Source of the DNA: Mactromeris polynyma
Taxonomy: Eukaryota > Mollusca > Bivalvia > Venerida > Mactridae
Direction: 5' to 3'
DNA: 64,000 nt
NCBI GenBank assembly: GCA_032209605.1
Contig: JASFXZ010000003.1
Coordinates: 7,194,807-7,258,806, forward strand
Every line of letters begins with the position of its first letter. The stretch's first letter is position 1. The position numbers and the translations under genes were made by a program. This document shows positions 3,701 to 64,000 of this stretch, in pieces. The notes under the pieces were generated by a model. That model was not told where the DNA came from, did no database searches, and worked only from the letters and a program-made list of their open reading frames with translations.

Positions 3701-6700
3701 CCATACAATCTAAGGAAAAGGTATCACCTGTGACAGCCGCTAACATATTGCACAAAATATTTTCTAAAATTACAGTAATTCATACAGTACATACCACACT
3801 GTCCTTCATCACTAGAGTCTCCACATTCATCAACTAGGTTGCAGACGGCAGACATTGACACACATTTTCCATTGTCACATGTAAACATTCCCTTACACGA
3901 ACCTGAACAAAATACAAGCAGTTCCAAATCAGCTGCTAAACATTTGAAAGCTTAGTTTTATTTGAATAACTTCCATTGATCATTGTTTGTTGTTTTTTTT
4001 TTTTGGTGCAGACATACTAACATGGCTTAGCTATTTGCATATCAGTGTTGTGTAAACCAATAAAATCTTACGTTAACCGATAAACCAACTTCTCTTCAAC
4101 CGAACAACGTTCGTAACCTTGATGCAGATTGGTTAACCTTTTGATAAGGGGTTCATTACCTTACCAAATCCACTGAATTCCTCTGAATTTACCCAAATCT
4201 ATTTTGGATCAGGAGTGCCCAGCAATTGTAACATCTCGCATTTTTTTATGTTGCACAACAAATCTTAACCTTATTATATTTATTGTTTAATAGACTGGCT
4301 GCCTATTCTGTTACAGTTAAATGGATTGTCGAATTTCTTAATACACTGCATCTCATGTCAGTGGTGGAAATTCACGATACTTACCAAGCGCGCGCTAATG
4401 TTTGTGGGTAAATTATTTCTGGTTATCGTTTCACCAATATCAGAGAGAGAATACGTAGCTACAGAGAACGCCACATACATAAGACAGTGCCTCCCCACGC
4501 AGACCTCCGGGAAAACAGTCTGTTTCCAATCCATGGTTTATATGTCTGTGATTGTATTAACATTAAAAGAAACTTATACAGCTATGTACTCATATTTGTT
4601 ACAGAAACTTTGTACGAATAACCAGTAAATCATACTCACTTGCTTGAGAAACCAACATATACACAAAGGAGTTAAACATCCACTTAAACGGCGATACAGC
4701 TGTTCGATTGTTTTCACGTGATAATTGACATTTACGCTCAGTGGGGTAAAATGAAAATGATCGACACACATATGTCTTTTTAGTCAGGCAGAACTGGGCA
4801 CACTGAAATAAGATCCTTAATAGTTATTTAATCATGTCACTCACTCAGATATTACTCACATACTCACATCCTATATACCTAGTTGCTATGGTTCATGAAA
4901 TTTGAACATATTTTACTTTATTATTATTTTAGACCTGTATGTATACCTGTAACCTTCAGTGTTTGTTGTGTTTTACGCCCGCCAACAATGTTGAATGCTC
5001 AGTGATATGGAGACAGTGCCTACTGGCAGCAGATACAGTGATACATGTACCAGGCTGTGGGCAAGTGACATCATAGTATGATGATACAATAACATGTTTG
5101 TAAATCGGTGATTACAGATGTTTGGCAGACAGAAATGTTTGTTAATCAGTGATTTTTAGGGATGTCAACGAATGGCAATTTTGGTATTCGAATATTCGGT
5201 CAACCTTCCGAACGAATATTCGAACATTCCACCTTCTTATTTAAAATTAATACATTTGAAATTCGAAGTTTAAGTTATACTTATCAATTTTGTGATTTAA
5301 ACAGATCACTTAATTTGTAAAAGTCCCCACGATTACTAATATGTTCAGGGCCTAAGTGTCATCACAAGAGTGTTATATATCTCTTGCCCCCTAATATACA
5401 ACATGAATTCATTCAATGTGATTTTTTAAATACACTTGCATTCAGCTTTTATATTGAAAATATCGAATATTCGAATGTTGAATCAGTATTCGAATATTCG
5501 GACGTACAAACGAGTATTCGAATATTCGTTGACATCCCTAGTGATTTTAGAAGTTTGGCAGACAGAAATGTTTGTTGATCGGTGATTTTAGATGTTTGGC
5601 AGACAGAAACATTTGTGAATCAGCGATTTCAGATGTCTTGCAGGTGAAAATGTTTGTGACTCAACAAAATGGGTTTCTGTGAACGAGGAAATGTTTCTAC
5701 ACCATGAACTTTGAACTTTACCAAATCTAACAACATTTGAATAGAAGTAATTAAGCATCAACTTACAGTTTCATTGGATGTTCCCATATATGTTTCCTCC
5801 ACGACACTGTCTGCTAATGTTCTGTGACGTTTCATTTCAAATTGATTGATTTGATAGTCTGGCAAAAAAATAAATAAAAAAATGAATCAAATGCTTGACA
5901 TGCTATCAAATAAATGTACAGTAAAATTTGTGTAATGGGGTCAGTGAATTACATGTGTGTACAAATGGTTGGTAAAATAAAGTGAAAACAAATTTATATT
6001 TTAACAAATTTACTATTACACCATCTCTCATCTGCCCGAATTTCCTAAATGCAGTACAACTTCGATAATAAGACCACCCTTGGGACCCTTGAAAAATAGT
6101 GTTATTGAGGTGGTTTTAATATTGAGGTTGAACAAAGAGCAAAACAGTGAAAATGGACTTGGAAATAGTGTTCTTATATAGAGGTGGTCTTATAATTGAG
6201 GTTGTCTTCAGGTGAGGATTTACTGTACTTAAAGAGGCATAATTCATTATATCCTCTTACAAGAACAAACCATTTATATAGGATAAGCTGGGCTAATATT
6301 CACATTCACAAATTTGGTCATTGTCCACTGTTATAAACAATGGCTTTTCATAAGTAAACTTACCACAGTCTTGTTCATCTTCCGAAAATGTACAGTCAGG
6401 TTCATAATCACAATGCCATTGTTGTCCAATACACCTACACATATAAATAGTAATACAATAATGGTTAACGTGTTTCTATTTCTTAATACATATACTTGAA
6501 TGATAAATCATTTACTCATATGAAGTCATTTCAAGGGACTTAGCATTTTGTTTTGTTTCATTTTTTTTACATATTTCCAAGTATTCCTAATCCCAATCTC
6601 ATTAAAATCAGCTCCAGTCGCATGCTCCTATACATTAGGCTAACAGGATCTGATGACTGCACAATACAGGTCACGTTCTTGTGACCTTTGAGTAGCCAAT

Positions 6701-38312: not shown

Positions 38313-41300
38313 TTAGAAGGTCATACAGGTCACAGATCTGTAGTTGGTGGGATTCAAAGTCCTGAAATATAAAGAAGACAGAATAATTTGTGGTGGAAAC
38401 ATTTCTATAGTGATAAATTGTATTATAATTCTTGAATTCTGAATTGACTAAAATAAACTCTTGTGAATTATAAGCTCTGAGTGAATGATTGCACCTTTAA
38501 ACTCATAAACCGCAAGAAAGGCGAGCAATTATTCAATGGTTTATCTATTTGTCATGAGCTATGCACAATTATACTGGTAGATATTTGCTGCTCATTTCAT
38601 ACACTGCATTACTTATTTTTTTATATTTTCACGCGCAGTTTGGCACTAAAACAGATCAGTTGATTTCATATCATGATAACATATACATTGTAATATACTC
38701 AGCTCATTAAATTCCTGTCATTTTGTCTGTAAGGTTTGATAAATTTCATGATCAAGTTAATGTCAAGGATCGTTTATTTACACAGTCTGTACAATAACAG
38801 TATAAAATGAGCTCTTTAAAGTTTTTAAACCTGACTATTAAAAACAAATATTGGTACCATCACCATACATTAAAGAAGCATTACATTTTTTCTCTTCTCA
38901 AATGACTTTGTGGTATTTTCAAACCAAACAAATTGCATTTCATTTTACAAAAAATGGTCACATTCAACAGTTTGACTATTTTTGTTGGTAAAAATTACAA
39001 CAATTTTTAATGTTTTAATTTGTAAATTTTAACAGTGAGAGCAGTTGGGAATATACATGTGGCAATTTGATACAGTATTAACTTCCATCCAAAAAAGACA
39101 TCTATTGTTGACAATCATCATCGTTCTAATGTACATCTGAGATATGATAAAGTATTGATCAGGGGGTTCTGAATGGTTAACATTGTCCACATGCTAACAT
39201 ACTGATGTTAACCATAATATGAAGCAAAACAACAACATGAAAAACACATTAATCAAACACCATGCAAGCATTCAAACATCTATACTTGTAGCTGTCAAAA
39301 CAAGACAAACTTTAAGCATTATTTAAAACCATGCAGTACAATGGTTTAACGATATGTAACACTACCAAAACACAAACAGCACATGCCCAGTAAAACCTCA
39401 CCTAATGACCACCTCAATAAGAAGACCACAATTTTCAAGTCCATTTTCATTGTTTTGCTCTCTATTCAACCTCAACATCAAGACCACCTCAATAAGAAGA
39501 CCAGTTTTCAAGGGTCACAAAGGTGGTCTTATTACAAAGTCATGTATTGAGGTCTTACTGTACAATGAAGCCATAAATTTATACAAAGTTGTTAATAAGA
39601 CACAAAGAGTATTACTCTGATGAATAAACAGTTATGTTTTAATGTTACACAAACAATTTCCAGTCTCATCATCTGTTCATTGGAAGTGTTAAAACTTTGT
39701 ATATATATGAAATGTTCTATATAGACGATGTAATTTGTATAAGTCTAAATAAAAAAAAATAAAAAAATAAAAAAATATATATATATGTTACATTTCCTGA
39801 TACCTTTACCTTTTAATTCAAACAAGTCTGTGTTGATTATTGAAATCTGAATTAATATGACTTATAGAAGGATTGATATTGCTGTTTATAATTCTCAAAA
39901 TATCTTCCAGAAAGATTCAGTGAATACCTATTAGTGGCCAGGTTCTGTCACCGATATGTACAGTAAAACCTCACTTATAGACCACCTCAATAATAAGACC
40001 ACCTCAAAATTAAGAACACAATGTTTAAGTCCATCTTCACGGTTTTACTCTTTATTATACCTCAATATTAAGACCACCTAAAATAGAAGACCAGCTTTAA
40101 AGGGTCCCAAGGATGGTCTTATCATTAAGTGAGGTTTTACTGTAATGCGCTCATTCAAATAATGTTAAATTAATTATTTACTGCTGTTAAAAAAAAATTT
40201 GATTATTTCACACAAAAACAGCATGAGCATTAAGAGCCGCAGTTATATGAAACTAACATGAATCAATGACTATGTGACATCACAATGCATGTAATGTATC
40301 AAAATGGGATGAATTTGTGAATTTAAAATATGTACATGTGCCCAGTTGAATAAGGAGACGAAGATCTATTTTCCTTAGAATAATATTGAAACATGATGGC
40401 CTTATACTGCTCACCTTTGAAATGTTGATATGATACTTTCATATGCTATACATGTAATAGGTAACCCAGGCAGACTCAATCCTTGGTAAACATTTTTCAT
40501 AAAGAGGTAGCCCATAGATAATATGTACTTAATTTTCATAACTTTGGACTCTTGGTCCAGACAGGATGTTTAATGGTTCCTACAAAGTTACATTTATAAC
40601 CAAATAGAGGCCCAGTCTTTGGTTATAAGGTTTAAATGCATGAAAATTATTTTATAAAACTTTTTACAAATTCTTTTTGTATTTTGACTGCTAGTTTCAA
40701 AATGTTTTGAAATTGTTATTAATCAAACTTGGGTAATTTTAATTCTTTCTGGTCAAGGACCATACCAGTGCTATTTCTGTGCGATAAGAGCAATACAGAC
40801 AACTCTATCCAAGAGAAGATTTACATTTAAGGCAAAATATTAACCACAGGGTGGCAGGATCACAGATGAAGATTGATCACAAAAGCTCAGCTAAGGTGAG
40901 CTAAAATGGTAGATAGTCGTACAAATTAGATCGCAGGTCATAAAATGTGTAATATTCCTACATATTTCTCTTTTCATGACACATCAAGTAAAACAGTTGT
41001 TAATTCAGCACTGTAACACGAACAGTGCACACAAGAACATAAACAATCACTTTAATCAAATCCCCGTAACTACTCTAAACAAATTTACTTCATACAAAAA
41101 CTTGCGAAACAAATACAAGTACCATCACTGGGTTGCTATCTTGTATAGTTGATAAATCTTATCTTTATTTAATCTGTAAGACAGGAACTCAATGAAATCA
41201 TACCAAAAAATATTTTAAATTTCCTTTTTCAGGGCTCTAGAAATCCACTATAAAACATTAGACATTGGTCGAAAATCATGCATTACCGATGGCTTGAAAT

Positions 41301-44300
41301 TGGTGACAATTCAAACAGCCTCGGACAACTAGCCTCCACTATTGAACAAGTCAGATTTCACTTGTCCGGGACACATGTATTTTAAACAAAATCTAGAGCC
41401 CTGCTTATTGACGACATTTGCCACATCTGTAACAAGTTTCACTGTTACTGAAATATGGGTGCTACATGACCGCTGAAGGGCCTTTGGATGAAAATGTCTT
41501 AAGGAATTTTGGATAGAATCTTATTTTTCTGCACTATAAGCAAAATAATTTAAAGTCCAATGACTTTAAACACATCTGAACTCAGCATAGCGTAATTAAT
41601 CAGTAATCTTTAGCATGGAGAAGTCTTATACTCGGAAAACTATCCTAGCTGGATCAACATGGAGTACATGTACTTGTCGAAACTATATTTCTAAAATTAT
41701 CATTACAACCCAAAGGAATGAAAGAGACTTTGACCTATGTTTATATAAACTATGTCTATTAATACACATGTAATTATATATACATGTATAAAGTAAAAAA
41801 GTGTACAGCATTTTGTGCTATTAACCTTACAGCGTGGATAATAGCTGTTTGACCTGGGCAGATTATGGCTTAATCGGTCCAGCAAAGGTTTGCTCGTAAA
41901 ACACATTACCGGTATATCTAAAGACGAATACTGTATCAAAATGATGGCCGAATGAACGTTAGCATCATATTCAAACCATTTTTTTTACATCAAGGGCCTT
42001 CTAAGATAAGAGTTTCAAAATATTGTTTTATTGAAAGTAATAATGATGAGGTGACAATCAAAAAGACTAAAACCTATCTTGTGTGATGGATATCAACAGA
42101 GATACTAAGGTTACACAAACTGATTAACTCGACCAGTTTCTTTCAATGTTCATTATTTTTTTTAAAAACTCCAAAACGAAGATGGAATTAGAACCTGGGA
42201 CCTTCAGAATTCTACATCTGTGTAAAAGACATTAATACCCTGTGTAGTCAGGCCCAGACATGAAAATCGGCCTCTGTATGCAAAATATCCATTAAGCTTT
42301 CAGCGGGTTGTCATTATCACGTTCCAGACTGACTAGACCAGCTTTTATCATCTAATAAGAATGAAAGAGACCTTGACCTGTGTTTATAAGCAAGATTTAG
42401 CTTTTTAGGACACTATTATACTGAATGAAATATAGCTAACAATTAACGGGAAACATGCAAACAAGGACTGGAGGTACAAGCTGTGAACATTAATTTTGTA
42501 GAATGAAATATTACCTTGATATTTTGTTTGCCAATTGTTAAAAGAAAATCAAATTTATGATTTCCTACACTTAAAAAACAATCAGGCCAACTGAGGTAAT
42601 ATTGTATAAATGATACCATCAGACTTTTACCTTGAAATTAACATATTTTAAGGATAAATAATATAAGTAAATTAATTATGAAGAAAACTAAAAGTAAATA
42701 ACATACTAAAATAACATAAGTAAATAATGGTAAATAAAACTCATGCAAAAAAATCTTCGTCTTATTTTCTGGAATACAGCTCCATTCAAGGAAATCAATA
42801 TATACAAGTCACATATATACAATGACACGTACTGTAAAACCATTCAATGGCACAATAGCTACATGATATCATGGGGACTGTACATTGACAAGACAAATGA
42901 TGTTTATATAATGTAATGTTAACATGATATATGAAAGGAAAATGATTGCTAAGCGATTACTAAGGCAACCATCCCTGTACATGCATAGTCTCACGACATG
43001 ATGCAGACTCACCATCCTCTCTCAAACTCGGCCAGCCGATGCCTTAGCTCGTACAGATTTAAAGATGTCAGCCTGATGTCTAAACACCATATAGAATTAG
43101 ATATCAGCATATGAACATAGGCGATGTGAATGATATAACTTGATATTTGAAATAAACAAATGTTCTTGCTTATTATCAGCAGAAAGGACTCCACATATAC
43201 AGACATCAATCAAAATGCAAGTTGCAACATGGTCACAGATAAACTCGTAAAATGGTTTTTGTGAAATGGAATTGAATTAATTACTTGAAGAAATTTTAAA
43301 CTTGAAGTGGTAAAATCTGGAATGGTAAATTTTGCTACTCCAGTACAATTATCATAAAACATATATTGCAAGACTCAATTAACTAAATTACTGATTATAA
43401 CCATGATATAAATGAAAAGCTGTCAGCAAAGCATCAATTTTGCATGTCAGCATGTCGACAATTAAGCGTCAATTTGCATGTCAGCATGTCGACAATTAAG
43501 CGTCAATTTCCATGTCAGCATGTCGACAATTAAGCGTCAATTTGCATGTCAGCATGTCGACAATTAAGCGTCAATTTGCATGTCAGCATGTCGACAATTA
43601 AGCGTCAATTTGCATTTCAATAATTTAGCATGGATTTGCATGTCAATAATACAAGCATCAATTTGCATCAACAATTAGCATCACTATGTATGTCAATAAT
43701 TCAGCATCACTTTGCATGTCAAAAATTCAAGCATCAATTTGCATCAACAATTAGCATCACTATGTATGTCAATAATTAAGTGTCAGTTTGCTTGTCAACT
43801 ACATAGGCATCATTTTGCATATCAATGATTCAGAATAAGGCTATATACAAGTATAAAAGCAAGAAGAAATGAGAACAGCTGTACGATTTCCAACCTCTTC
43901 TTTAGTGATTTCATTTCCAGAAATCGTCACATGTGACATGACTATGTACTGACAGTAAGCAATATTTGCCCCATATGGAAATACGAAAATGAAATGAATA
44001 TATGGAGTAATTATTGTTTCCTGCTTGCAAATAGTGTCATCACATGTTGTGTTTTCTTGAAATGATGTCACTTACAGGAGAGATTGTAAATCTCAAAGCA
44101 GTGCTCAAATGTTCTTTTTCTCTACTATAAATTATGAAGTAATTCAAGAAGTTTGAAAACAGTAAAATCAGTTATAAACATTTCAGACCAAATCATGTAA
44201 CTTTTATATTGAAACCTCATCAGTTCTTCAATCTATGATGTAATTGAATGATGAATTAAGTAATTCCAAGTACCAAACAAACAACCAAACAAAATAACTG

Positions 44301-47300
44301 TAAACAGATAACCAACAATAGTTTGTCAGGAACAATAACTCTGTAGATAATATACTGCAGAACTGAGAACATAATTTTATCTCATGTGTTATAATCACCT
44401 TCCTAATGAACAATGCTAGAAGCTTTTAAGATCTTCTAATGTCATACTAATTGAAAAATGTAAAAATATGTTATGGTATACAATGTCAACTAAACCAAAC
44501 ATATGGTAACCTGGTTGTTTTCCTGTACTGGTAATTTTAGACAAGAGCTCTTGCTGTTCCACCAAGCAGTACATCATTGTGCAATGCGAAGTTAATGTCC
44601 CCAAGAATTTCAAAAATATGAATGAACTTTCTCTTTCTGTTTTATCTACGCATGATTAATTTCCATTGACGGTGCCTGTAGAACTAAGTGGTATCAGGTT
44701 TACTAGTAAATTAACTTATACAAGCATTGATTTGTTTAATGTGAACAAACAATCTGAATGGAATAGTTAATAATCTGACATTGCTTAGATGAAGACTTAC
44801 AATAACAAAGGCATATCAAGCTTGAAATTTTGCTCACATGTGATAAGTTATCATAGCAGACAATGAGAGGTTTTGCTAAGCTGACAAAGAATAGAAATCT
44901 CTGAATGTTGCTTTATAACAACTAAGTGACAACACATCAGTGTGTTCGACAGCATCAAATAAGACAGAAATATAAAAACAAATATATAAAATTACATACT
45001 TCATAACATTCTGGTTGATAATTGACACCATTGGAGTACTCTTGGGTCCCTGGGAAGGCATAAATGTCTTTCCACTCTTGTTGACTACATTGATTGGTCG
45101 ATTTACTTTCACCTTGTATGGGTCAACAGAATGAGTGGGATATGTTTCAAATGTACCAATCTTTGCACCGCCAGGCTGTAATATGGATGTAAGGAAATTA
45201 GGTGAGTATAGCCAGTAGCAATGTGGGACAAACTACCACAAAAATAGCAGATAAATTATATGTGGCAATTATTTTTGTGACGGGTGCTAAAGAATTCAGA
45301 CATTATGACAATCTACAAAGTACAAATTTGCTGAACTATCATAAAACCTTGTTCAAAGTACAAAGAGTTTATAATCTGCTGTCAGAAGACTTTGTCAGTC
45401 AGTATATTCCTTATTCAAATTAATCAAAACAGAAAATGGCGGACTTACGGTAACTGTTAAAATTATTAATTAAAAAAAGTGAATTGTTTCCAAAAGGGAC
45501 TTTTATATTGTGGAAACTGATATTTGATCTATGTTCTTAAGATATGCAAAGCCTATTTTACATTTTTTAAATATAAGTGGATAGCTTTGGATAGGACCCA
45601 ACCATTACATTACATTCCATTGTTCAAATGATTCAACCACTTATTAATTCTAATTTTAACCAAGTTATGGTATAAATACTGACCTTTTTACCGGGTGAGC
45701 TTGGTTTGAATGGTTTGGAATCATCTTTTTTAGTTGGTAGTGAAGCAGAGCCACTTCTCTTTGGTAATTTATCGCTATTGTAAGGATTTCCATCAAAATA
45801 TGCTCTAGGATGCATATTTAACCTGAATGCTCCACCTTTTGTAGCATTTTTATGTGATGTTGCTTCTTTCTGTAATAAAAAAATGAAAATATATCCTTAT
45901 GAATCATAAATGTTTTAAATCATGCATTTTTTAATTAGATGTGTAATTATCATTTTAATTGTCATACTTGAATTGTTTAAATTGAAAACCATTTTATTAA
46001 ATTCTTAACATATTTCTTGAATTTTGAGCAGACATGTGCAATATAAGCTATTTCATAATCTTTTAACATTATAACTCAATTAATAATCATTAATAAGCCA
46101 TGTAAAAGGTAACATGTAAGTTACATGTATTAAGTTTATGGTATAAAAGTAAATGTTTTTCATGTTAAATAACAATATACATTGTTTTAATCAAATGTCA
46201 AGTGAAAGTGGTGCATCAATCAGAAACAATAATGGAAGCAAACTTTCCTGTCATCACTTCAAGATGGCAACTTCTGCAGGCAATATTAGATATAACAAAT
46301 CTAAAATTGGACTACGACAGAGCCCTTACAATGTTTAGTTATCATTTTCATCCAATAAAACAGCAGAAAAGTTTGCTTTTTAGCTCGTGATTAAAGTGTT
46401 ATTCATGTTAACCAAACCTTTGTTATTTCCCGTGCCCTGTCATAACGTTCACTCTGGTATGCAGGATAGGAACCAATAGTTACACCAACAAAGCTGTTAA
46501 TGAGATATGCCACAAATAGTCACACACAAGCTTCTTACATAACCAATGCTAACATTGAACAACAGGGTTTATTTTCAGCTGTTTTTATAACCGTTATTCA
46601 GCTATATTCCCAATGCCAAAAAGTATATATTTTTTCAAATTTGAATGTAAAAATTGCCAATAAATCTGAAGAAATGTTTTGGTTCAATTAAGCCGAAAAA
46701 TGACAAAGTCAGAGGCTATTCTCTCACTGGCAGTTTATACATATATAGCAATTGTTGATTCACTACATCCTTTTATTTTCTTCCTAAAATTTTGCTGTAA
46801 TTTCTGGACTTTTTCCCATTTTCTAAAATTAACGTGCACAAATTCTTGGTCATCCTCACAAAATAGCCAAAATAAACCCTGAAAAAGGCCCACATACATG
46901 ATCAATTTTAATATTTCTATTACTGCTTTGACAAACTTAAACAAGCAATTTCAAATGTTTGAGATGTATAGCAAATTAGAATGAGAAATTCCAAACCAAA
47001 TACAAGTTAGAGAGCTTTGATCTTTTTTGGAGACGAAATTCCTGAGTAAAAAGACTACAACAACAGATAATAGAAACATTATAAATTGATCAAATATTGA
47101 TAGAGGTGTCGATAAAGCTAAACAGATCAGACATACATTTCAAAACAAGCCTGTGTGTATTGATATAAATGGAAAATACAAGATTGTTTGAAAAATACTT
47201 AAAATGGAATAAAAAAACAAGTTATGCAATATGTTCATTTTGAAAAGATTGTGTAAGGAACTTCGAATATATGATAATGTTTCGCAACTCAACACAGGTC

Positions 47301-50300
47301 TAGTTTTCAAATGTAAGTCATGTATTAAACAAATAATGCATATTAGAACAGAACCATTGTGCAAACATCCAAGCATACAACTGACTTACAACATGTATAC
47401 ATTAGTACATATACACCAAACTGATTTCAAAATAGGGCTGCAGGTTAAACTCATATTGGAATGACATATAAACTTAGACTCTGGCAAGGGATATTAGTTT
47501 TAATGCAAAACAAATATAATTTAGTTGTACATCAATACATTTGTGATAACACTGTTTGATATTAACTTCATTGCATTCCTTGGGTCTGCTTTCATAATGC
47601 TATTAATGTTGTACCTTCATAAAGCTGTAAATTAAATGGGTGAACGAAAGCAATACATGCAGATATACTATTTTCGAAATACATAAAATAATTTTTTAGA
47701 TTTTGCTATGAAGCAATTAGATACCAATGTTGTAAAGCCCCAAATGCATCTGAACCAGTACCTTAACTGACTTTTACGTTGACCATTTCCTTCAGTAGGT
47801 GCTTTGTAATAATGACTCTTTGTAATGTATATGTACAAATCAGCACAGATAAACACCATGAATAAATGTTGCACAAAGACAGCAGTGTGACCAAGCGTAA
47901 GTTAGCCATGCAGAACTCTGCAGACAGGAGGCAGACATACAGAAAAGTTCACTAAAATGCTAAAATTAATGACAGTATAGTCCAATGAATTCTGATAAAG
48001 CAGTAAAAGTTCAATTTGATCTTCAGCCAAATGAATATTATTTGCATCAAGTAAAACCTAAAATTGGGTATAGAATTTTGCCATTTACCTGATGACTGTT
48101 GTAAACATATTGTGAGGTGGCCAACCAATGAAAACATGTTTTGGTAATAATGACCAATAGATAAATAGTACATAAATACAATAAAGGTATTCTCAACTTA
48201 TTTTGAATCTTTATATATAAACAAGTATAAATTTTTAGTCTGATCAGCATTATTTGTAAGGTTTGCACAGAACTTCAAGTGTTAATATCCCCGGATTAGT
48301 AATTTATAACAATAAATGCAGATACATGTACCGGCACGCTATTTTGAATCAGTAAATTGCACAACTAACTACACAAGGGTAAGTGACAAAGATTAAATGA
48401 CAATGCTGTAACAAAGAATTAGAAAACACAAGCTCAACATTAATGCATTGGAATGAAACACAAATGTAGGGAACTCTGAAATGATTAAACCAACCCTGTT
48501 GATTTCTCTGTGGACATCATAGGGGTCTCCTTGATAGTTAGGATACTTTCCTATAGTAACTGCGACATAACTGAAATCCCAAATTTTTTATCAAAATAGA
48601 TAATAAGAATTACTTGTATCACCAACTCTGAACGGTATGAAAACAACATACTTACCAGAATATTGCATACCTTTTCTAGCATTTTTAAAAATGCACCCAT
48701 TATTCGATCTGTATATTGTATTCTGAGTCATGCATTATTATCACAATAGAATTTCACAGTTTTTCATGCAAAGACTACTCCTAAGTAAATAACCCTATTT
48801 TTGTGCACAATTAATTATTTCACAATGTTAACTTGATAATTTTATTGAAGTGACCATGGTTCTAAAAACATCATAGCTACACATTTGACAACATTAATCC
48901 ATATGATACATTTAAGGTAATTGCATGCTTTGCATTGCTTTTTAGTGAGTCTACTAAATTACTTACATAGAATGATCGTTGATAAAGACAAATTGCTTCA
49001 GTGTATATGTTACAACATTCATTATGAATCATTAAAGGCTAATTATACTGTACATAATGAGTAATAAGATACCTGAGGTGACCAGTAAGATAAAACACAG
49101 GAACAACATGAGCAATGTTTTATAAAACTGATGTGCCTTTAGAACTGGCAGATATATAGATATTACCTACCCAAAACCTGTCCCATGTTTACCAGGACTT
49201 GTCAAGACATTTTTACCAGATGTTTTCCTTTCTTTACCAGGCTTTGAAACTGGACTGAATGCTGAAATAGGTCCACTGAGAGTACCATAGTGATTGCCTA
49301 AACCAGACCTAGAAGAAACAAAACAGAAAGTTCCATACAAAGTATCAAATACAAAATGTTTTGACAGAAAATATCTCGCAATAAAATATCAATACAAGGT
49401 AATTTTATGCAAAACAGCAATGTAGCAAGAACATAAAACAACTAATTCTACATAAAATTTATAATACCAATTCTAAATTTATTCTCAAATTATTATTATA
49501 CATTATTTAACTCCATTCAAATGTTCAACGTTCTGAATTGTAAATGAAGCATATTTGATCACAATGTTCTTCTACAGGGATATTATAAAAAGGTGCACAA
49601 TAAAAGCAAAACATTTTATTACAGTAAAACGTCAATAATAAGACAACCCTTGGGACCCTTGAAAACTGGTCTTAATATTGAGATGGTCTTAATACTGAGA
49701 TTGAATAAAGAGCAAAACAGAGAAAATAGACTTCAAAATTGTGTTCGTAATATTGAGGTGGTCTTGAAGTGAGGTTTTACTGTATATCACTACAAGGCAT
49801 CAATTTGCCATAATAAAAAATGAATAAATAAATAGAAAGGTACAAACATTTTCTTATCTCCGCTGCTAGGTAAAAATGCTTTTCCAATATTCTTCTGACC
49901 TTCTTTTAGTCTGGATTGTCTTCTTACTTTGATAGGATCGCTAAACGCTTCTCCTTCCATCACACGAGCAAACTTATCATTGAAATATCCAGCTTGAAGG
50001 GCAGATCTAGTTTTACTGCCCCCTGGCAGAATTTGTTTACCTTTTGTTGCAGCTTCATTGAACTGAACTGTAATAGAAAGTAATTTTCAAATAGAATACA
50101 ATTACAGACAAAAGTGAAGTACATATGTTATCGTTCTACCAGTAAAAGTAATAACCAGAGACATCTGTATGTAATGTCATTGTTTTGGATTACAAAGTTC
50201 AAGGATTTATATCATTTAGCCGTCATTTTTAGTAGAAAATTAGAAAAATAAGCGATTTAAAACCTGTTTAAACATATTTCTTCCGGAAAAACACACTCAT

Positions 50301-50656
50301 GAGCAAACAGTGTGTATGTAAAAACACTACGATTGTACAAAGAAAAAGAGTTAGGCAACCATAGTTAACTGATTCACCATACAATGCTCAAAAGCAGATC
50401 CACAGACTTTTATTCACAGGAATGAAGGAAATATATGTACAATAGAACATAATGTTTCGAGCAACACTCTCGATAATTTGCTACAGGTACACTATAGGCT
50501 AGAGCCTAGGTAGGCAATATGCTAGATACCAAAATAGACACATAACACATGCTTACCACTTCCAGGTTTCTTATATCTATCATTGATTGTAATATATCCC
50601 ATTTCCTGAAACAGCCCAACCCTGTCCATATCTCCCTTGCCTCCTCGTTCACCCAT
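38313..50656 (-). CDS. CFAP96: CFAP96 (C4orf47-type) ciliary protein with alternative fourth exon
   Basis: Coding exons: 50557-50656, 49848-50067, 49171-49308, then either 48495-48570 (4A) or 46418-46493 (4B), 45684-45869, 45000-45175 and 38313-38361. With one exon 4 the sum is 945 nt, 314 residues plus stop; human CFAP96 is about 309. Family landmarks: DRVGLFQEMGYITINDRY near the start, NEAATKGKQILPGGSK, NIGKAFLPSSGDKK, GLGNHYGTLSGP, LNMHPRAYFDGNPY, FKPSSPGKK, and near the C-terminus QGPKSTPMVSII followed by TLNPTNYRSV. The vertebrate family member is a cilia/centrosome-associated protein of the axoneme. The last intron is 6.6 kb. An AATAAA on this strand lies at 38154-38159, about 150 nt past the stop. 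An AG at 50675-50676 may mark a 5'-UTR intron. It is divergently paired with MRE11. Confidence 0.95.
39388..39560. mobile_element. pogo/Tigger-like MITE copy 6 (CFAP96 last intron)
   Basis: CAGTAAAACCTCACCTAATG at the left, GAGGTCTTACTG at the right, reverse orientation, full length. Confidence 0.8.
39961..40142. mobile_element. pogo/Tigger-like MITE copy 7 (best-preserved ends)
   Basis: Ends CAGTAAAACCTCACTTA and TAAGTGAGGTTTTACTG are perfect inverted repeats flanked by TA. It lies in the CFAP96 last intron, 400 bp from copy 6. Confidence 0.88.
40390..40905. repeat. Probable dispersed repeat with GCTCACCT / AGGTGAGC ends
   Basis: Begins ATGATGGCCTTATACTGCTC + ACCT and ends AAGCTCAGCTAAGGTGAGCT + AAAA. 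Such ends are common in bivalve interspersed repeats. Single copy here, so low confidence. Confidence 0.4.
41230..41403. mobile_element. 174-bp MITE with CAGGGCTCTAGA ends (CFAP96 last intron)
   Basis: Perfect 12-bp inverted ends CAGGGCTCTAGA / TCTAGAGCCCTG. No convincing target duplication. A fragment with a similar end is at 15060-15086. Confidence 0.75.
43425..43820. repeat. 34-bp minisatellite with degenerate tail (CFAP96 last intron)
   Basis: About five clean copies of GCGTCAATTTGCATGTCAGC + ATGTCGACAATTAA (43440-43610), followed by decayed GCATCAATTTGCATGTCAAT units to about 43820. Confidence 0.93.
46418..46493 (-). CDS. CFAP96: CFAP96 exon 4B (alternative, mutually exclusive)
   Basis: A 76-nt exon with the same entry phase (2) and exit phase (0) as 4A. 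The acceptor is TTAACAG and the donor GTTTGG. It reads GFVGVTIGSYPAYQ, then SERYDRAREITK. Either exon joins exon 3 to exon 5 in frame. Joining 4A to 4B shifts the frame and meets TGA inside 4B. Skipping both gives TAA in exon 5. Confidence 0.9.
48495..48570 (-). CDS. CFAP96: CFAP96 exon 4A (alternative, mutually exclusive)
   Basis: A 76-nt exon. The acceptor ends at the AG in 48571-48572 and the donor is GTTGGT (48494 downward). Taken in after exon 3 (carry GG) it reads GYVAVTIGKYPNYQ, then GDPYDVHREINR, and ends in phase 0. It is homologous to exon 4B, about 2 kb downstream in the transcript, at 14 of 26 residues with no gap. Its donor departs from GTRAGT, as expected for a regulated exon. 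Confidence 0.9.
49622..49782. mobile_element. pogo/Tigger-like MITE copy 8 (CFAP96 intron 2)
   Basis: CAGTAAAACGTCAATAATAA at the left, AAGTGAGGTTTTACTG at the right, TA on both sides. Confidence 0.85.
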
Positions 50657-52886: not shown

Positions 52887-55800
52887 ATGGCCAGCGAGGG
52901 TGAAGAGGACAACAGTATATTAAAAATTCTGATCGCAACTGATATACATCTTGGTTATGCAGAGAAAGACCCTGTGAGAGGAAATGATTCCTTGATTGCA
53001 TTTGAAGAAATTCTAGAGAATGCCAGGAAGCATGATGTAGATTTTGTGTTGCTTGGTGGTGATTTATATCATGAAAACAAACCATCTCGCAAGATCATGC
53101 ATGGCTCTTTAGCTTTGCTCCGAAATTATTGCCTTGGTGACAGACCTGTGGAGTTTGAATATCTCAGTGATCAGTCCAAGAATTTCGACCATTGTCAGTT
53201 TCCATCCTTGAATTATGAGGATCCCAATTTAAATATAGCGATTCCTGTGTTTTCTATTCATGGTAACCATGACGATCCAACGGGTCAGGGGAATCTTTGC
53301 TCACTCGACATGCTACATAGTGCTGGTTTTGTTAACTACTTCGGCAAATCAACTTCCTTGGATAAAATACAGATAAGCCCCCTTTTGTTTCAGAAAGGCT
53401 CAACTAAATTAGCTTTGTATGGCATGGGGGCTATACGTGATGAAAGACTTCACCGTATGTTTTTGCACAAAAACGTTTCTATGTTAAGGCCAAAAGAAGA
53501 TCAGGATAAATGGTTTAATATGTTCGTTATTCATCAGAACAGATCTAAGCATGGTGCGACCAATCATATACCAGAACAGTTCTTAGATGAATTTATAGAC
53601 CTTGTGTTCTGGGGACATGAACACGAATGCCGAATAGAACCGGAATGGAATGGTATTCAAAAGTTTTACGTCACCCAACCAGGAAGTAGTATTGCGACTT
53701 CATTAAGTGAAGGTGAAACTGCGGCAAAATTTTGTGGGTTGTTGCAAATTAGGGGAAAAGACTTTAAAATCAAACCTATAAAATTAGAGACAGTACGTCA
53801 GTTTTATATGGAGGACGTTGTTCTTCAAGAAACCAGTTTAGATCCATTGGACGCTGACATTACAAAGAAAATGGAGGCTTACTGTCAGGAGAAAGTTGAA
53901 ATACTGTTGGAAAAAGCAGGTAAAATGTGTATTGTACATGTATTACCTTGTACATGTACAGAAAAGTTCCGCCTTACAACTGGTCTGCTAATACGACCAT
54001 CCGCATAATACGACCACTTTTTCTCGGACCCAAATTTTTGTTCTTTAATTCAATGGTCGCGGGGTCCGATATTACGACCAACTCGCTATTCCGTAATACG
54101 ACCAACATATCTGGTCCCAACGACCAGTTTATTGCGGTTAATTTAGGTCACGCAAATGAGACCTACTTGTAGCTTTGTCTGTCCATCTGTGCGTCAGTAT
54201 GTGCGTCTGTCCCGCATTTGTGTCTGCGTTATTTCTCAGCAATCACTGATGAGAATGAAATGCATGAGAAGCTTCATTACAAAGAGGAGTTTCGATGATT
54301 TTTCAAATGTTTCCTCATGTACAAACTTCGGGGAGCATTCCTCAGTTCTTCAAATAATTTCTTGTTATTTTCTGTTATACATTGACTGCTTATAATAATT
54401 ATTCTTTTAAATTTTATATAAATTCATTCCAACTGATTTCAGAACGTGAACATTCCGGGAACAAAAAACAACCAAAATTACCATTGATAAGACTACGAGT
54501 TGATTACAGTGGTGGGTTTGAATCATTTAGTCAGCACAGGTATGTCATTCTGTTTCCTCCACTTGTAAGGAATATGTCTAGTTCATATCTCTTCACAGGG
54601 GTGTCGGTAAGAGCGGGAGCCGGTAAAATTACCTAGTAACTTACGTCGTCACCCGGCTACTTGTCTTGTATGCATGATCATAATTATGGGGAGTACCCCC
54701 CGCCTATTTTTGGTGATTTCCCTGCTAATTCAGGAATTAGTGACACCCCTGTCTTTACCCCCAACTTTTTGGGAGATTTTTTGTGTGTAGCAATTGCTCA
54801 ATATTTTCACTACTAGTACTTTGACAAATTATTGCTGTTATAAGGTGAAATAATTTAGAGGCTCCCTTAGTTACATTGGTCCAAAAGGGTTCAATGAAGG
54901 TACATGTATGTATGAAAGAACAAGTTGTCATATATAGTTCCTGCAGATATCATTTCCTGCCTGGTTGTATTGTCTGTCAGATGGACAGTTCAGGGAGAAG
55001 TGCTTCTGTGCAAACAATTAGTTCTGAAGGCCAACCTTAAGAAATCGTTTAAGGCGACCTTCTCATGTAAAATGCCGCAGCTCAATTTATTTTTTCAGGT
55101 TCATTGATGCTAATATTTTTCTGGTCTTTTAGCCAATACAGTACTAAACTAAACAAAATATACCTACCTAACCACAGGTCGCGTAACTGCAAACAAACAA
55201 TTTTTTAAGGATGGCCTAATATTCATTGGTATTTTCACAACAATATTAGAAGTTTCAATAATCTTTTCTCAGGTTTGGTCAGAAATTTGTGGATAAGGTT
55301 GCTAACCCAAAGGACTTGATATACTTTATGAAGAAAAAAGCCATGGCAGCGAAGAAACTAGAAAATAAAGAAGGTTTGTTGCGCATATGATTGCTTTGTT
55401 TCATTATTGACTCACTGTAACTCTATGGTAACGGAATTTGTGAAAATCTTCATGCTCTATACTTTGCTATGCTGCTGAATATGTATGTCTCTCAACAGGT
55501 ACAAGAAAATATAATTCTAAATAACAAGTTGAATCCAACTTTATGCAGTAAAACCTAAATAAACAGACCACCTTTGGGACCCTTGAAAACTGAACTTATT
55601 GAGGTGGTCTAATATTGAGTTTGAATAAAGAGCCAAACAGTGAAAATGGACTTGAAAATTGTGTTCTTAATTTTGAGGTGGTCTTATTATTGAGTTGGTT
55701 TTTATTTGAGGTTTTATTGTATTTCTTAACATGTGAAATAAATGATATTTTCCATTCTGTTACCAAGATTCACAGTTATATTATATTTGACTTTCAGTTT

Positions 55801-60609: not shown

Positions 60610-63600
60610 AAATCTCAAACCACAATGTAGATGCATGTAACTGGTGATACAGACACATAAAGGTTGGACGGAGTAAATATCGCTCAAACCACTTTGTACA
60701 GACACCCTGAGGTTGGACACATTGAATATTGCTCAAACCTATACATAGATGCCTGAAACTTGGGATACAGACCCCTTGAAGCTGGACACAGTTAATATCA
60801 CTCACACCTCTATGTATATGCCTGTAACTGATCATACAGACAGACCCCTTGAGGTTGGAAACAGTAAATACATCGCCCAAACCACTGTGTGTATGGCTGT
60901 TACAGGTGGTACAGACCCCTTGTGGTTGGACACAGTAAATATCGCTCACACCACTATGTGTATGGCTGTTACAGGTGGTACAGACCCCTTGTGGTTGGAC
61001 ACAGTAAATATCGCCCAAACCACTGTGTGTATGGCTGTTACAGGTGGTACAGACCCCTTGTGGTTGGACACAGTAAATATCGCCCAAACCACTGTGTGTA
61101 TGGCTGTTACAGGTGGTACAGACCCCTTGTGGTTGGACACAGTAAATATCGCCCAAACCACTGTGTGTATGGCTGTTACAGGTGGTACAGACCCCTTGTG
61201 GTTGGACACAGTAAATATCGCCCAAACCACTATGTATATGCCTGTTACAGGTGGTACAGACCCCTTGTGGTTGGACACGGTCAATATCGCTCACACCACT
61301 ATGTATATGCATGTAACTGATCATACAGACACCTTAGGTTTGGACACAGTCAATATCGCTCAAACCACTGTGTGTATGGCTGTTACAGGTGGTACAGACC
61401 CCTTGTGGTTGGACACAGTAAATATCGCTCACACCACTATGTGTATGGCTGTTACAGGTGGTACAGACCCCTTGTGGTTGGACACAGTAAATATCGCCCA
61501 AACCACTGTGTGTATGGCTGTTACAGGTGGTACAGACCCCTTGTGGTTGGACACAGTAAATATCGCCCAAACCACTGTGTGTATGGCTGTTACAGGTGGT
61601 ACAGACCCCTTGTGGTTGGACACAGTAAATATCGCTCACACCACTATGTATATGCATGTAACTGATCATACAGACACCTTAGGTTTGGACACAGTCAATA
61701 TCGCTCAAACCACTATGTATATGCATATAACCCGTGGTACAGACCCCTTGAGGTTGGACACAGTAAATATCGCTCAAACCACAATGTATATGCCTGTAAC
61801 TGATCATACAGACCACTTAGGGTTGGACACAGTCAATAGCGCTCAAACCACTATGTATATGCCTGTAACTGATCATACAGACCACTTAGGGTTGGACACA
61901 GTCAATAGCGCTCACACCACTATGTATATGCATGTAACTGATCGTACAGACACCTTAGGGTTGGACACAGTCAATATCGCTCAAACCACAATGTATATGC
62001 CTGTAACTGATCAAACAGACCGCTTGTGGTTGGACACAGTCAATATCGCTCTAACTACTATGAATATGCCTGTAACTGATCATACAGGCCGCTTGTGGTT
62101 GGACACAGTCAATATCGCTCTAACTACTATGTATATGCCTGTAACTGATCATACAGACCCCTTGGGGTTGCACACAGTAAATATCGCTCTAACTACTATG
62201 TACATGTCTGTAACTGATCAAACAGACCCCTTGCGGTTGGACACAGTCAATATCGCTCAAACCACTATGTATATGCATGTAACTGATCATACAGACCCCC
62301 TTGGGGTTGGACACAGTCAATATCGCTCTAACTACTCTGCATATGCATGTAACTGATCAAACAGACCCCTTGTGGTTGGACACAGTCAATATCGCTCAAA
62401 CTACTATGTATATGCCTGTAACTTCTCATACAAACCCCTTGGGCTTGCACACAGTAAATTTCGCTCTAACTACTATGTATATGTCTGTAACTGATCAAAC
62501 GGACCCCTTGGGGTTGGACACATTAAATTTCGCTCAGACAACTATGTATATGCCTGTAACTGGTGGTACAGACCCCTTGTGTTTGGACACAGTAAATATC
62601 GCTCAAACCACAATGTATATAACTGGTGGTACAGACCCCATGAGGTTGGACACAGTAAATATCGCTCAAACCACAATGTATATGCATGTAACTGGTAGTA
62701 CAGACACATTGAGGTTGAACACAGTAAATATCGCTCAAGCCGCTATGTATATGCATATAACCGTGGTACAGACCCCTTGAGGTTGGACACAGTAAATATC
62801 GCTCAAACCACAATGTATATGCCTCTAACTGGTAGTACAGACACCTTGAGGTTGGACACAATAAATATCGCTCAAACCACAATGTATATGCATGTAACTG
62901 ATCATACAGACCCCTTGATGTTGGACACGGTAAAAATCGCTCAAACCACTATGTACATGTATATGCATGTAACTGGTGGTACAGACCCCTTGAGGTTGGA
63001 CACAGTAAATATCGCTCTAACTACTCTGCATATGCATGTAACTGATCAAACAGACCCCTTGTGGTTGGACACAGTCAATATCGCTCAAACTACTATGTAT
63101 ATGCCTGTAACTTCTCATACAAACCCCTTGGGCTTGCACACAGTAAATTTCGCTCTAACTACTATGTATATGTCTGTAACTGATCAAACGGACCCCTTGG
63201 GGTTGGACACATTAAATTTCGCTCAGACAACTATGTATATGCCTGTAACTGGTGGTACAGACCCCTTGTGTTTGGACACAGTAAATATCGCTCAAACCAC
63301 AATGTATATAACTGGTGGTACAGACCCCATGAGGTTGGACACAGTAAATATCGCTCAAACCACAATGTATATGCATGTAACTGGTAGTACAGACACATTG
63401 AGGTTGAACACAGTAAATATCGCTCAAGCCGCTATGTATATGCATATAACCGTGGTACAGACCCCTTGAGGTTGGACACAGTAAATATCGCTCAAACCAC
63501 AATGTATATGCCTCTAACTGGTAGTACAGACACCTTGAGGTTGGACACAATAAATATCGCTCAAACCACAATGTATATGCATGTAACTGATCATACAGAC

Positions 63601-64000
63601 CCCTTGATGTTGGACACGGTAAAAATCGCTCAAACCACTATGTACATGTATATGCATGTAACTGGTGGTACAGACCCCTTGAGGTTGGACACAGTAAATA
63701 TCGCTCAAACCACTATGTATATACATGCCACTGGTGGTACAGACACCTTGAGGTTGGACATTGTAAATATCGCTCAAGCCACTATGTATATGCATGTAAC
63801 CGGTGGTACAGACACCTTGAGGTTGGACACAGTAAATATTGCCCAAGCCACTATGTATATGCATGTAACTGGTGGTAAAGACACCTTGAGGTTGGACACA
63901 GTAAATATCGCTAAACCATTTTGTATAGGCCTGTAACTGGTGGTACAGACCCCTTGAGGTTGGACACAGTAAATATTGCTCAAGCCACTATGTATATGTC
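60610..64000. repeat. 69-bp minisatellite, at least 48 units, continuing past the right edge
   Basis: Unit: GGTACAGACCCCTTGTGGTT, GGACACAGTAAATATCGCTC and AAACCACTATGTATATGCCTGTAACTG-like blocks. The period of 23 codons leaves four of six frames free of stops inside a unit, giving ORFs of 535 codons (+) and 359 codons (-). Single-base indels (about 62295 and elsewhere) break every long frame, so it is treated as non-coding. It begins about 1.6 kb past the MRE11 stop. Confidence 0.95.
62325..63702. repeat. 689-bp direct duplication inside the 69-bp array
   Basis: The block 62325-63013 recurs at 63014-63702; every position compared by eye and the translations of both strands agree. The offset of 689 is one base short of ten units. 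Confidence 0.92.

Follow-up and report, generated by a model that had tools for sequence, protein, structure and literature searches.

Mutually exclusive use of a duplicated exon 4 proposed for CFAP96 of the clam Mactromeris polynyma, and two exon 4 types in other molluscs

Exon 4 of CFAP96 is very probably tandemly duplicated in the heterodont clam Mactromeris polynyma, with the two copies (4A and 4B) used one at a time. In the mRNA, either 4A or 4B would link exon 3 to exon 5, transcripts with both exons or neither would be frame-broken and probably destroyed or useless, and the product would be one doublet-microtubule protein in two forms differing in one 25-residue segment. Mutually exclusive duplicated exons are already known as a kind; what appears to be new is that this pair is not confined to M. 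polynyma. No description of a mutually exclusive exon pair in CFAP96 was found in the literature searched, and some CFAP96 entries among the matches listed are already titled isoform X1, X2 or X3, so parts of the pair may already sit in automatic annotation.

Structure of the CFAP96 gene

CFAP96 lies on the minus strand of the window (the whole 64,000-nt stretch of DNA analysed) and extends from the start codon to the distal stop codon over positions 38313–50656, as defined by a Pfam PF15239 match and exon models. The two isoforms scored 345.6 and 344.2 bits against PF15239 over residues 9–297 (profile positions 2–295 of 296), both above the curated cut-off of 27 bits. The coding part of exon 1 runs from the ATG (50557–50656) and is followed by exon 2 (49848–50067; donor gtttgt), exon 3 (49171–49308), which ends in phase 2 and is common to both forms upstream of the pair, the alternative exons 4A (48495–48570) and 4B (46418–46493), exon 5 (45684–45869), which starts in phase 0 and is common to both forms downstream of the pair, and exon 6 (45000–45175).

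Beyond exon 6, the gene has two alternative last exons, each giving its own C-terminal end. The proximal exon 7a (43022–43079) gives a 317-residue product and the distal exon 7b (38313–38361) a 314-residue product. Mya (P0001) and Mercenaria (P0002) have ends like 7a, and most remaining rows of the alignment have 7b-like ends. A strong-looking donor, gtgagt, lies 9 nt past the stop of exon 7a (43013–43079, minus strand), so 7a may be a stop-carrying cassette exon.

Among the matches listed for isoform A, the closest named proteins came from clams, namely Mya (83% identity), Dreissena (82%) and Mercenaria (81%). In a tree built from the protein minus exon 4, CFAP96 of M. polynyma grouped with Mya and Mercenaria (SH-aLRT 98), a grouping to which the proximal C-terminal end common to these three rows may contribute. 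A search of the 792.8 Mb assembly with isoform B placed 6 of 6 matches in the CFAP96 locus, a search that short lone exons could escape.

Exons 4A and 4B

Both alternative exons are 76 nt long, are preceded by AG and followed by GT, and enter in phase 2 and leave in phase 0; here the exon models bear out the coordinates and phases given in an earlier reading made from the sequence alone. With either 4A or 4B as the only exon between 3 and 5, translation yielded a complete in-frame product (317 residues with 7a, 314 with 7b); the sequence-only reading had given 314 residues, which corresponds to the distal last exon at 38361–38313. When 4A and 4B were joined, a stop was met after 192 codons, inside 4B, and when both were skipped, a stop was met after 169 codons, in exon 5, each as had been predicted. 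Between the two exons, 15 of 26 residues were identical when the glycine whose codon is split with exon 3 is counted; leaving that glycine out gives 14 of 25, in keeping with the 14 identities in 26 reported before. At the nucleotide level, 42 of 76 positions agreed.

The resemblance of 4B to 4A stands out from its surroundings. On the minus strand, among 42 stop-free windows of 76 nt bounded by AG and GT and read in the frame of the pair, 4B scored 80 against 4A (BLOSUM62) and the runner-up scored 8; on the plus strand, the best of 46 such windows scored 0. Differences between the two exons amounted to 16 of 17.7 synonymous sites, near saturation, and to 18 of 60.3 nonsynonymous sites, indicating that the duplication is old and that both copies have been constrained. 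Compared with other clams, 4A was identical to Mya at 20 of 26 residues and 4B to Mercenaria at 21 of 26, with 83–84% identity in the remainder of the protein.

The pair thus consists of adjacent homologous exons with shared phases, either of which joins in frame, while double inclusion and double skipping are unproductive. The interpretation of 4A and 4B as mutually exclusive duplicated exons, proposed before, is supported by this frame logic together with the homology, the constraint on both copies, the single locus and the comparative data below, and on these grounds we infer their exclusivity in mRNA. The additional proposal that exclusion is enforced by the reading frame holds only in part, as the frame merely filters wrong mRNAs.

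Splice sites and exclusion

The acceptor tracts of 4A (7 pyrimidines in 17 positions) and 4B (9 of 17) were the poorest of the seven acceptors of the gene, the others having 10 to 15. Scored with an approximate human matrix, the donors of 4A (AGG/gttggt) and 4B (AAG/gtttgg) reached 3.6 and 4.3, the exon 2 donor was lower at 1.9, and the other four ranged from 5.6 to 8.4. The two donors had been read correctly before, but a T at position +3 is not special to the pair, since the exon 2 donor (gtttgt) has it as well.

The intron between 4A and 4B (46494–48494) measures 2001 nt, which is too long for steric exclusion. By inspection, all splice sites listed are GT-AG with ordinary exon ends, which speaks against a mismatch between U2 and U12 sites. 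Complementary intronic sequences flanking the exons had also been suggested; in 13 pairs of intron segments taken from outside the middle of the 2001-nt intron, each compared with 40 shuffles, pairing was not above that of shuffles. For the best of the 13 pairs, 1 of 40 shuffles was as low, a value that 13 tries would yield by chance.

The weak sites on both exons would leave the choice to trans-acting factors, and a trans factor that reads these sites, combined with removal of frame-broken mRNA, is the likeliest scheme for exclusion on the present sequence evidence. Another possibility, to which we give some weight without favouring it, is that the spliceosome takes 4A, 4B, both or neither and that only frame-intact mRNAs persist. 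The frame alone would be enough to clear the wrong forms, the intron segments compared had no pairing beyond shuffles, and the 2001-nt intron is too long for steric exclusion. Such waste would, however, be costly over the long times implied, and the weak acceptor tracts of 4A and 4B, a small sample from one gene, suggest regulated inclusion.

The same intron contains a MITE-like element of 319 nt (46563–46881), whose 13-nt terminal inverted repeats (CAGGGTTTATTTT) are perfect and which lies some 70 nt from 4B; related copies were present at 7 of 7 other genome loci fetched.

Exon 4 types in other molluscs

A protein search with isoform A returned 337 proteins, of which the best 120 were analysed; the database was clustered at 90%, with one representative displayed per cluster. 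Rows without a species name were classed as bivalve or gastropod by their position in the tree minus exon 4, and types A and B were assigned partly by eye, aided by profiles built from bivalve rows. Among the matches listed, exon 4 was of type A in, for example, Mya, Argopecten, Crassostrea virginica, Solemya, Patella and Littorina, and of type B in, for example, Mercenaria, Dreissena, Ostrea, Lottia and Haliotis rufescens. Both types are intact across bivalves and gastropods, which contradicts the outcome that had been named as fatal to the pair, namely that the close relatives have all lost the frame of one copy.

In leave-one-out profile scoring, all 10 bivalve A rows came out above zero and all 9 bivalve B rows below it, and Potamilus, scored separately against the bivalve profiles, was B (-12.6). 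The same profiles separated most of the 28 gastropod rows, with 9 scoring -8.4 or below (B), 16 scoring at least +6 (A) and 3 lying close to zero (P0054, P0064 and P0066). At position 9 of the segment, all but one of the 27 A rows have lysine and none of the 21 B rows does, an agreement to be read with the fact that the assignment leaned partly on this position. Positions 13, 20, 21 and 26 of the segment are variable as well. Beyond bivalves and gastropods, 41 of 72 rows scored below zero, which indicates rows without clear sorting into A and B.

No named species with both complete isoforms was seen among the matches listed from this 90%-clustered database of single representatives. In one gene model, that of Mytilus edulis (P0032), an A segment and a B segment follow each other with extra sequence between them, in the A-to-B order found in M. 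polynyma. Eight bivalve-like rows labelled lgn, presumably from a read-assembly collection, are full-length proteins on contigs of 1.1–2.7 kb, three of type A (P0004, P0006 and P0010) and five of type B (P0003, P0008, P0009, P0014 and P0018). Exons 1 to 7a of M. polynyma CFAP96 span 7.6 kb, so these shorter contigs were taken as spliced transcripts of both types. The matches listed included no protein above 84% identity and no such lgn-type record from M. polynyma.

The presence of both types in bivalves and gastropods suggests that the pair is probably older than their split. Annotation is affected as well, because records of the same name carry either type.

Trees and pairwise comparisons

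The tree minus exon 4 was built from 54 rows (47 mollusc and 7 other). It required 17 changes between A and B among the 47 mollusc rows, 9 in bivalves and 8 in gastropods. AU tests on this tree rejected bivalve A rows as a single clade (p = 1.8e-6) and all A rows as a single clade (p = 1.7e-32); these p values are descriptive, as the groups were named after an earlier tree had been seen. In a tree of exon 4 only (48 rows, 26 columns), type needed 2 changes and class 4, with P0016, P0064 and P0066 counted as B yet falling on the A side. Exon 4 thus tracks type and the gene tracks relationship, as expected where every lineage retained both exons.

These trees bear on the idea that the A and B types elsewhere are two paralogous genes and that the second exon in M. 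polynyma is a useless relic. Protein records by themselves do not reveal exon structure, and the named entries among the matches listed yield one isoform per species, as two genes would allow. Two separate genes would, however, make the rest of the protein sort by type, and it sorts by relationship; all matches in the M. polynyma genome fell at a single locus (with the reservation given above for short lone exons); and neither copy has decayed, their identities to Mya and Mercenaria being near those of the rest of the protein. We consider paralogous genes highly improbable.

Pairs of closely related proteins of opposite type illustrated the same separation. Identity outside and inside exon 4 was 97% and 35% for Haliotis rufescens and H. 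cracherodii, 98% and 58% for the Mytilus edulis (Mytilus-like) pair P0045 and P0018, 93% and 54% for C. virginica and P0014, and 89% and 42% for Nucella and P0027. Exon 4 was the least alike 26-residue window in 15 of 15 hand-picked opposite-type mollusc pairs; in four same-type mollusc pairs examined beside this set, it was so in one (Haliotis asinina and H. cracherodii), by one residue. When the comparison was extended to every pair with a likeness of 70% or more outside exon 4, exon 4 was the least alike window in 71 of 114 pairs of opposite type, in 8 of 111 of the same type and in 10 of 142 from outside the molluscs.

Four of these 10 non-mollusc pairs joined P0081 or P0082 with P0084 or P0086, all from one annelid-like group. 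This group has two exon 4 types of its own (P0081, P0082 and P0097 versus P0084 and P0086), and P0082 and P0084 were 74% alike outside exon 4 and 23% inside. We treat the pattern as a lead towards the exon pair, or a second one, beyond molluscs. Vertebrate and echinoderm CFAP96 rows among the matches listed had no strong two-type pattern.

A separate duplication of the exon in bivalves and in gastropods would also give two types in each class. The 26 residues resolve little, and on the exon 4 tree bivalves as one clade were not rejected (cost 9.6 lnL, p-AU 0.17); the annelid-like group has its own two types; and comparable convergent events are reported for vertebrates, arthropods and nematodes (PMC9741552). 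Against convergence, a single clade of all A rows cost 1.8 lnL (AU p 0.45, not rejected), less than the bivalve clade, profiles built from bivalves split the gastropod rows, and lysine at position 9 marks A rows with the caveat already stated. We regard separate duplications as unlikely, and a single pair that predates the bivalve–gastropod split as the probable reading of these sequences.

CFAP96 in axonemes

CFAP96 chains are present in solved doublet-microtubule structures (8snb, 8otz, 9cpb, 9fqr and 9cpc), and the match to the 8snb chain covered residues 5–300 (E = 9.2e-113). As described in passages of the source papers, 8OTZ and 9FQR derive from bovine sperm, 9CPB from bovine oviduct cilia and 9CPC from porcine brain ventricle cilia (PMC11779644), and 8SNB from sea urchin sperm (PMC12218126). 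Its occurrence in structures of both mammalian sperm and epithelial cilia suggests that mammals use a single CFAP96 in the two kinds of axoneme. The predicted structure of CFAP96 was poor overall, at a mean pLDDT of 57, and a better-predicted helix starts inside exon 4; in this model, the swapped 25-residue segment would end in the start of the predicted helix.

The mollusc exon choice may supply two versions of CFAP96 for axonemes, and its likeliest use, a conjecture, would be to tune the protein for different axonemes, such as epithelial cilia and sperm flagella. According to PMC11779644, sperm-specific paralogues take the place of only a few axonemal proteins, and why this is so is stated to be unclear. 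Like those paralogues, the exon pair would provide versions of a doublet protein per axoneme; mammals use separate genes for those few proteins, whereas mollusc CFAP96 is one gene with two exons. Vertebrate and echinoderm members of the same family, to which the chains in the five structures belong, differ in the lack of a strong two-type pattern noted above. We offer only as a tentative speculation the full proposal that a splice switch older than the bivalve–gastropod split, perhaps older than the mollusc–annelid split, swaps a segment of a doublet protein between epithelial cilia and sperm flagella within one gene, as mammals do by paralogue replacement. Molluscs would give a clean test of why doublet-protein versions differ between sperm and epithelial cilia, with a single gene, a 25-residue swap, clams and snails to compare, and a family already placed in solved doublets.

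Two known systems are close to the pair in other respects. In exon 10 of the alternative oxidase (AOX) gene of the oyster Crassostrea virginica, as described in PMC5589949, one exon of a mollusc gene is likewise tandemly duplicated and either copy is used to give products of equal size. The AOX copies are alternative last exons, one of them responsive to air exposure, whereas 4A and 4B are internal, frame-linked and common to bivalves and gastropods. Human tandem duplicated exon substitutions (PMC9741552) also produce isoforms that differ in one homologous segment only and are mostly ancient, with mostly conservative changes. They are described as overrepresented among ion channels and among functions of brain and muscle, whereas the CFAP96 pair belongs to a mollusc ciliary doublet protein.

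Other features of the window

Four short arrays of a 17-nt unit resembling TGGTCTTAATACTGAGA, on either strand, were found at 6168–6208, 39968–40019, 49667–49701 and 55661–55712, and are perhaps one dispersed element. At positions 60696–63998, a 69-nt unit is repeated about 48 times in a satellite-like array that runs to the end of the window.
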